Part shown: piece after piece, positions 55,030-55,852 of the stretch
How the letters are laid out: every line of letters begins with the position of its first letter
How positions within the stretch are numbered: position 1 is the first letter of the stretch
Origin: Dyadobacter flavalbus
Lineage (GTDB): Bacteria; Bacteroidota; Bacteroidia; Cytophagales; Spirosomataceae
NCBI RefSeq assembly: GCF_006149045.1
Contig: NZ_VBSN01000027.1
Location: 372,001-436,000, forward strand
Direction of reading: 5' to 3'
DNA length: 64,000 nt
Made by a program: the position numbers and the translations under genes
Notes under the pieces: model-generated
Told to the model about the DNA's origin: nothing
Databases searched by the model: none
What the model saw: the letters and a program-made list of their open reading frames with translations, nothing else

Positions 55030-55272
55030 CTACTTTCCAATTTTCTCAAGGCGCTGGAAGAAAAACAGCAACTCCCTGAAAGAAAGAAAAATGTCATGCA
55101 TACGTGGATTGTGGCCGGCTTCCTTTTGGAATGCCATGAAATCGCTGTAAATCATCCAGAGATCATTTGTCCAGGCTGCTGGACTGCTTACTGCAAGTAA
55201 TTCTTCCACTTCTTGTCCATAAGCGAGAAGTCTTAAATCCGAAGATTGCGAAGTGTGCGTGTTTGTGTTCAT
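55030..55272 (-). CDS. Small hypothetical protein downstream of the structured RNAs
   Basis: The 80-residue product looks helical and soluble, with conserved-looking aromatic blocks (SPAAWTNDLWMIYSDFMAFQ, MHDIFLSFRELLFFFQRLEK). No signal peptide or known motif is recognised. Its start lies about 22 bp after the T-tract of the structured RNA at 55294-55373, on the same strand. It is therefore either the gene controlled by that RNA or simply the next gene. No downstream partner on this strand exists. Confidence 0.68.
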   Translation of the reverse strand: MNTNTHTSQSSDLRLLAYGQEVEELLAVSSPAAWTNDLWMIYSDFMAFQKEAGHNPRMHDIFLSFRELLFFFQRLEKIGK

Positions 55273-55293
55273 TTCTTTTACGAATTAAAGGAT

Positions 55294-55373
55294 AAAAAAA
55301 GCCCTGTCTAAGGTGTCCTAACGCTCGTAAAAACGTTCGGGGGACTTTCGCCGCACCCACACCATAACAGGGC
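55294..55373 (-). ncRNA. Structured RNA motif, copy 1, with terminator-like tail
   Basis: Read on the minus strand, the ends pair (GCCCTGT with ACAGGGC). Inside, GGTGT pairs with ACACC, enclosing two hairpins: one with a GGC-GAAA-GTC tip (GNRA tetraloop) and one of about seven pairs (AACG...CGTT). The outer stem is followed by seven T, as in an intrinsic terminator. Copy 2 lies about 190 bp upstream. The GNRA loop and T-tract both favour the minus strand. I do not recognise it as a known riboswitch or RNA family. It could be a small RNA or a cis-regulatory leader of the 80-residue gene. Confidence 0.65.
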
Positions 55374-55566
55374 AACTCTTGCAAGATCATTCATATGTTT
55401 ACGAAATTAGGAGCGCCAAGATTCAAAATATTTCAGGAAAATTGCAAATGCAGATAGTGAAAGACTTACATTTTTATGATGTAAAAAACAACTTTTAGGC
55501 GTAAGCAAATTTGGTTGAAGCTAAAACGCAGTAGAGCATTAGCATGACTAACAATTCAGCAAAAGT

Positions 55567-55638
55567 GCCTTGTCTTAGGTGTCCAAACGCTCATAGAAGC
55601 GCTTAGGAAGCTTTCGCTGATCCTCACCATAACAAGGC
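55567..55638 (-). ncRNA. Structured RNA motif, copy 2
   Basis: It has the same layout as copy 1: outer stem GCCTTGT with ACAAGGC, inner GGTG with CACC, a hairpin tipped AGC-GAAA-GCT, and an eight-pair hairpin starting AAGCGCTT. The outer stem differs from copy 1 at one pair (C-G to T-A) and the GNRA hairpin at others, yet pairing is kept. The single-stranded TTATGGTG, GAGCGTT and GGACACCT segments are conserved. There is no strong T-tract after this copy. Confidence 0.62.
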
Positions 55639-55852
55639 AATGCTTTTGAGTTTTTTCTGCTCAGGATTTCAAAATGCAAAGTTCCGGAAGGTTTTACAGC
55701 AATTGCAAATTTAAAAAACAAAAGAATTATAAAGGTTCAGTAAACCCGAATGTACAGTTGTAAATTACTTAGCATCCAATGCGAAGCTTCGTAAGGGTAT
55801 GATCCTGATTCTGTGTCTCGTGCCTGAGGGTATTTATAATCAGGTGTAAAGA

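Follow-up and report, generated by a model that had tools for sequence, protein, structure and literature searches.

The c4-2 RNA that lies directly upstream of an 80-amino-acid gene in Dyadobacter flavalbus is very probably a C4-type antisense RNA, encoded within the leader of the very gene whose translation it blocks. The window, by which we mean the whole 64,000-nucleotide stretch of DNA that was analysed, holds two c4-2 copies on its minus strand, and of these it is copy A, not copy B, that has target sites and a gene of its own (Table 1).

We propose that the cassette, in which site 1 with the leader ATG is followed by c4-2, site 2 and the start codon of the 80-amino-acid gene, is read as a single transcript, and that c4-2 would be made from this leader transcript. 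The RNA would fold into a closed stem carrying two hairpins, and the hairpin 2 loop and the junction segment would each pair with one half of site 2 and so block the ribosome. Less surely, pairing at site 1 may silence the leader open reading frame (ORF), whose translation would unfold c4-2. Cassettes of different code within one genome should not cross-talk, because their loop and site codes differ from locus to locus, and each unit would be insulated from the others in this way.

Table 1. Coordinates of the c4-2 RNAs, antisense segments, sites and ORFs within the window
Feature	Position	Strand	Remark
c4-2 RNA copy A	55298..55374	-	RF02944, 52.5 bits, full model 1-79
c4-2 RNA copy B, orphan	55562..55641	-	RF02944, 65.3 bits
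T-tract, putative terminator or small-RNA 3' end	55294..55300	-	Directly 3' of the copy A outer stem
Antisense loop of copy A, TTTTACGA	55325..55332	-	Hairpin 2; 8-nt complement of 55276-55283, 7-nt complement of 55398-55404
Antisense junction segment of copy A, TTAGGA	55316..55321	-	6-nt complement of site 1 TCCTAA, 4-nt complement of site 2 TCCT
Site 1 loop target, TCGTAAA	55398..55404	-	Upstream of the leader ATG; match equalled by 0.66% of shuffled loops
Site 1 junction target, TCCTAA	55407..55412	-	Complementary to TTAGGA
Site 2 loop target, TCGTAAAA	55276..55283	-	Three bases upstream of the 80-aa start codon; match equalled by 0.18% of shuffled loops
Site 2 junction target, TCCT	55289..55292	-	4-nt junction match only
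Leader ORF, 28 aa, putative	55308..55394	-	Starts just after site 1 and runs through copy A
80-aa gene, predicted target	55030..55272	-	ORF; relatives lie directly downstream of c4-2 copies

A known structured RNA in two copies

Both copies are structured RNAs of a known family, c4-2 (Rfam RF02944), each aligning over positions 1-79 of the 79-position model and each above the gathering cut-off of 41. The original prediction, made from the sequence alone, had described them as belonging to no named family and as a possible new class; the Rfam search that it proposed returned this known family for both copies and so removed the novelty. Copy A also scores 93.6 bits against our own model, R1, although it is among the 46 copies from which R1 was built. 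Between 54900 and 55900, RF02944 is the sole Rfam family listed at E<=1, where only the best of overlapping clan members was kept and a weaker match to RF01695 could therefore be hidden. Rfam types c4-2 as "sRNA", not as antisense, and groups it in clan CL00128 with C4 of phage P1 and c4-a1b1.

The structural description, positions included, has held up, with two corrections. The outer stem, the GGTG/CACC inner stem, the GAAA hairpin and the second hairpin are present in both minus-strand segments, and the T-tract does lie 22 nt before the start of the 80-amino-acid gene at 55272. The claim that covariation marks a selected, structured small RNA is borne out by 46 distinct copies: on an alignment made from sequence only, the 22 pairs are standard in 94.3% of cases, against 88.8% in shuffled alignments and 34-48% when the partners are slid by 1-3 columns. 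Changes on both sides occur in 12 of the 22 pairs, a number reached by 1 of 500 shuffles, and the alignment contains 64 cells with such two-sided changes against a shuffled mean of 19.2. The GAGCGTT segment, which had been singled out as conserved, is indeed common to the two window copies but varies across the c4-2 family; it covers the end of the hairpin 2 loop and the 3' strand of that hairpin. The two copies are also not equivalent, target sites and a gene being found for copy A but not for copy B. A run of six or more T at the position of the T-tract is found in 30 of 97 c4-2 copies.

The c4-2 family is thus already known. We found no description of its targets in the literature searched, a search that did not take in the original c4-2 report, which is said to be that of Weinberg et al. 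2017. To judge from the name c4-2, a resemblance to C4 had been noticed when the family was described, so that part of the antisense finding may be in print. Among the papers searched, the accession RF02944 occurs in one, the Rfam 15 paper, in a table of families improved with R-scape; a 2010 paper on candidate RNAs has C4 and c4-a1b1, but no mention of c4-2 was found there; and c4-2 does not occur in the accessible portion of a flavobacterial transcriptome paper (PMC9723704). No paper linking Dyadobacter, small RNA and toxin-antitoxin was found in the literature searched.

Variable loops and their predicted target sites

The principal evidence for an antisense function is that the hairpin 2 loop varies from locus to locus and that, in most cases, a sequence complementary to it is found immediately 5' of an ATG some 25 nt downstream of c4-2, with a second complement upstream of c4-2, near a second ATG. 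All 97 copies from 30 Dyadobacter genomes could be parsed, with a downstream window in 94 and an upstream window in 85. In the 18-nt stretch that closes with the gene ATG, the mean longest run complementary to the loop is 5.88 nt over 85 distinct pairs, compared with 3.67 nt when loops are exchanged at random between loci (sd 0.11; highest value in 10,000 permutations 4.14; z about 20). In the 18-nt stretch that closes with the leader ATG it is 6.32 nt over 72 distinct pairs, compared with 3.75 nt (highest value in 10,000 permutations 4.19; z about 22). Runs of at least 6 nt occur in 51 of 85 downstream and 53 of 72 upstream pairs, and in 6.4% of all other pairings.

Permutation among loci ignores relatedness, and the test was therefore repeated on representatives chosen by edit distance, single-linkage grouping having chained 60 copies together. 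With 27 representatives whose loops are at least 4 edits apart, the means are 6.26 nt upstream against 3.71 permuted and 5.59 nt downstream against 3.68; with 10 representatives at least 6 edits apart they are 6.5 against 3.69 and 5.8 against 3.55. Allowing G-U pairs gives the same picture.

Matches of at least 6 nt on both sides are found in 45 of the 83 copies that have both windows, and these comprise 28 distinct loops; 77 of the 97 copies have such a match on at least one side, and the remaining 20 have no run of 6 nt or more in either window. The downstream Watson-Crick run in the 18-nt window is shorter than 5 nt in 23 of 94 copies. Some of these low-run copies are orphans or apparently genuine losses, and some reach longer matches once G-U pairs are allowed or the window is widened. 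Among the 11 related loops of one group, the match to site 1 is always 7 nt, and that to site 2 ranges from 2 to 8.

A second antisense element reinforces the first. The six bases before CACC, which we call the junction segment, covary with a second target element situated 5' of the loop target, as in the pairs TTAGGA-TCCTAA, TTAGGT-ACCTAA, CTTGGA-TCCAA, CTGGGA-TCCCA, TTTGGA-TCCAAA and AAAGGC-CCTTT. The mean junction run is 4.65 nt downstream against 3.64 permuted (maximum 4.01; n=88) and 4.80 nt upstream against 3.80 (maximum 4.17; n=75), with a match of only 0 to 3 nt in some copies. The cassettes accordingly display the C4-type architecture, namely two antisense segments and paired flanking sites, the second of which precedes a start codon.

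The leader ORF that follows site 1 covers the 5' half of c4-2 and has the consensus MKNLxxxALLWCG. Its start is present in 85 of 97 copies, and 74 of those 85 share one frame relative to the RNA. From these sequences, the leader ORF may be translated, or its ATG may merely mimic site 2. Only 30 of the 85 upstream regions conform to a strict promoter pattern, so that no promoter is claimed.

The predicted target gene, orphan copies and wider distribution

An intact gene of about 80 codons starts within about 40 nt of 74 of the 97 c4-2 copies, a count in which a frameshifted gene wrongly taken in (G002_C17) is offset by an intact one that was overlooked (G006_C30_256579). The remaining copies are tandem orphans, stand before broken or partial genes, or are gene-free, and six have no family gene within 700 nt. 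The 80-amino-acid family gave no convincing match in Pfam, NCBIfam, PHROGs, PADLOC or the PDB sequences; its best library match, in PADLOC, reached E 0.013 for 1 of 22 members. AlphaFold models the protein as three helices (pLDDT 87.7), and Foldseek returned nothing at E<=0.001 for this model against PDB and BFVD. A tblastn search of phages and plasmids with the window protein gave no match, and a search of viral contigs for loci related to its gene found none.

The c4-2 scaffold is kept while the downstream protein changes, because the downstream gene of genus g151 encodes a 77-amino-acid family with no detectable relation to the 80-amino-acid family (hhalign probability 0.4%), and the downstream gene in G138, G141 and G205 looks like a third type. 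No relative of the g151 protein was found in phages, nor of the g151 locus in plasmids, and the G138 protein matched nothing in plasmids or viral contigs. By eye, a 171-amino-acid ORF that follows c4-2 in G205 (L226, 460-972, minus strand) seems to join the third type to a C-terminal half resembling the 80-amino-acid family.

Conversely, the 80-amino-acid gene can do without c4-2, as is shown by relatives free of the RNA. Such relatives recur in Dyadobacter (L258-L263; G000:C1:767766-768002 and its relatives), and no c4-2 was detected at them by Rfam (L258-L263, L266) or by R1 (L258-L268). At L258 the gene is divergent from one that, by eye, resembles a helix-turn-helix regulator. Further relatives of the gene, some of them partial, at L172, L175, L180, L184, L186, L188 and L189 also gave no c4-2 by Rfam or R1. 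A separate feature of the gene is an RNA hairpin formed by ES-x-DS codons near its start (L037-L128), with synonymous covariation: over 45 distinct loci the third bases of the E and D codons are G-C in 17, A-T in 26, G-T in 2 and A-C in 0 (Fisher 1.6e-10). The 80-amino-acid gene of the window lacks the exact ES-x-DS motif and has a weak version of it at 55236-55247, minus strand.

Copy B is an orphan, a putative antisense RNA with no detectable target or gene. The longest match between its loop and its own flanks is 5 nt, an exact search of its own genome for the two-part pattern TCCAAA-TCATAG-ATG found no site, and the only 80-amino-acid family gene within 700 nt downstream of it is that of copy A. 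A comparison with another genome, G006, bears on the history of copy A. The esterase-like neighbour gene in G006 aligns to that of the window at 90% identity over 817 bases and lies 185 bp from a copy-B-like orphan c4-2; in the window, 640 bp separate the esterase-like gene and copy B, and copy A and its gene lie inside this interval. Beyond the G006 orphan, the upstream flank of the window gives no alignment, and the sigma-factor-like gene found upstream in the window has no close relative in G006 (best 33% identity). This comparison, which is one-sided and not a clean empty site, suggests that copy A is gained and lost together with its gene; the reading of copy A as an insertion is weakened because G006 shares one side only.

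In four genomes c4-2 copies stand in tandem, with five spacings of 258-298 bp in all. At several loci, among them G000:C1:363754-363987, G017:C2 (L064) and L110, c4-2 persists beside a small gene that carries a truncation, a frameshift or a stop.

The RNA is widespread in Dyadobacter, being present in 30 of 48 genomes with one to nine copies each (97 matches, 94 over the cut-off), and was not found in the 51 non-Dyadobacter genomes of the same search. Three further copies (L149, L158 and L269) were found; R1 scores L158 at 83.5 bits and L269 at 81.6 bits, and both had been missed by Rfam-based searches. The counts are lower bounds, since the large searches used stricter filters and scored few candidates per genome. 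In wider searches c4-2 is present in at least 34 of 222 genomes and 4 of 36 genera of the family, in at least 18 of 390 genomes of the order, including one of another family (G384), and in at least 11 of 395 genomes of a phylum sample (10 over the cut-off), nine of these in genus g151, of the same class and another order. The family is thus not confined to Cytophagales, the order for which the original prediction had suggested a new class, and two copies lie in viral contigs.

Loop matching extends to these distant copies. In five copies from three other genera of the family, the downstream run is 7-10 nt in all five (counted directly, with no permutation) and the upstream run is 7 nt in all but one, where it is 5 nt. 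The G384 copy has a 14-nt loop match spanning the last two bases of the start codon and the codons that follow, with no upstream site. For genus g151, where 18 of 35 matches were examined, the means are 7.2 nt upstream against 4.0 permuted (n=15) and 5.6 nt downstream against 3.7 (n=17), the latter mean being lowered by start codons assigned wrongly by the automatic procedure in at least four of the 18 loci (L276, L279, L282 and L291). In the same genus, L280, the second member of a tandem pair, lacks a site on either side. L283, a match that scores below the cut-off in another genome, has no such layout. Among 35 viral stretches with a 14-base motif, two contain c4-2, and both copies have loop matches of 9-10 nt on both sides; a second viral motif search returned no stretches. 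These copies lie in IMG/VR contigs (L293, 13941-14023; L313, 1910-1994) beside small target proteins without known identity, and one of the contigs encodes proteins that, by eye, resemble capsid, protease and replication proteins.

Alternative readings and relation to known systems

Other readings of the locus have to be weighed against the antisense one. A transcription attenuator, in which c4-2 and the T-tract act as a terminator and pairing of the loop with site 1 in the same transcript controls read-through, would account for the seven T that follow copy A and for the position of site 1 upstream, probably on the same transcript. Attenuation alone needs no site 2, however, and site 2, which lies downstream of the terminator, matches the loop nearly as well as site 1 (5.88 against 6.32 nt); the outer stem could well stay intact when the loop is paired, and six or more T follow only 30 of the 97 copies. 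We consider this reading improbable. A folded DNA element, such as a transposon end or recombination site, is harder still to credit. In IS200/IS605-like elements the loop of the folded DNA guides strand pairing to flanking repeats, and here too repeated sites flank a structure that is multicopy and patchy, while the copy A unit is absent beside the matching gene and orphan of G006, where one side can be compared. Yet the sites are pinned to start codons, c4-2 is a member of the C4 clan, the early codons of the gene keep an RNA-type hairpin through synonymous changes, and inspection by eye of the ORFs between 52 and 59 kb revealed no transposase; we think it very unlikely. The original prediction had also raised a riboswitch, and the compact, conserved structure ahead of a gene speaks for that or another ligand-binding RNA. 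We disfavour it, to the point of giving it almost no credence, because the most variable part of the RNA is the antisense loop, which follows the start-codon sites on either side, and because the genes downstream are not the same in all taxa: those of Dyadobacter and g151 show no detectable relation, and those of G138 and G141 look different again. The six copies with no family gene within 700 nt also speak against it.

The antisense reading may be extended to a type I-like toxin-antitoxin system, with c4-2 as the RNA antitoxin and the 80-amino-acid protein as the toxin. This would fit the presence of up to nine copies per genome in 30 of 48 Dyadobacter genomes under many codes, and the survival of several copies beside broken genes. 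There is also a precedent in P1, whose C4 RNA represses icd, an inhibitor of cell division, according to the annotation of the P1 record and the available text of PMC8198154 and PMC8546580. Against this, the predicted three-helix protein matches no toxin family, has no fold match in PDB or BFVD at E<=0.001 and shows no homology to Icd (hhalign probability 0.8%), and we regard the extension as possible, with the balance tilted against it. More tentatively still, c4-2 may be a reprogrammable antisense cassette of Bacteroidota chromosomes and phages, in which the scaffold would be kept while the two-part code (loop and junction) and the guarded protein are swapped; genomes would then carry several mutually insulated, addiction-like units, and some orphan RNAs may neutralise incoming units of the same code.

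C4-type regulation is known from P1-like phages and, if the antisense reading is true, it reaches the chromosomes of Bacteroidota. An Rfam family typed "sRNA" gains from sequence alone a specific, testable mechanism and a predicted target; the 28 distinct loops that match on both sides offer a ready natural series for the study of antisense specificity; and the guarded proteins, which have no match in the libraries searched, are clear candidates for functional tests.

In summary, c4-2 resembles the C4 RNAs of P1 and P7 (RF01695) and c4-a1b1 (RF03163) in its clan (CL00128) and as an RNA of about 77 nt between two target sites. Like P1 C4, it has two antisense segments, with site 1 upstream and site 2 just before the start codon of a small gene. 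In the P1 record, C4 is annotated between the "a1/b1" and "a2/b2" sites before icd, and our script, run on P1 C4 as a positive control, recovered the annotated sites as the two longest runs in each flank, with b1 short of its last base; the c4-2 loop target corresponds to b of P1 and the junction target to a. Unlike P1 C4, the RNA studied here is chromosomal and multicopy, and its target has no detectable homology to Icd; unlike in the P1 immI operon, the next ORF lies on the opposite strand and there is no ant gene, so that the icd-ant arrangement is absent. The comparison with type I toxin-antitoxin systems runs along similar lines. In those systems the antisense RNA lies opposite the gene, whereas c4-2 lies upstream on the same strand and its neighbour has no toxin match; what the two have in common is a small RNA predicted to block translation of an adjacent small gene.
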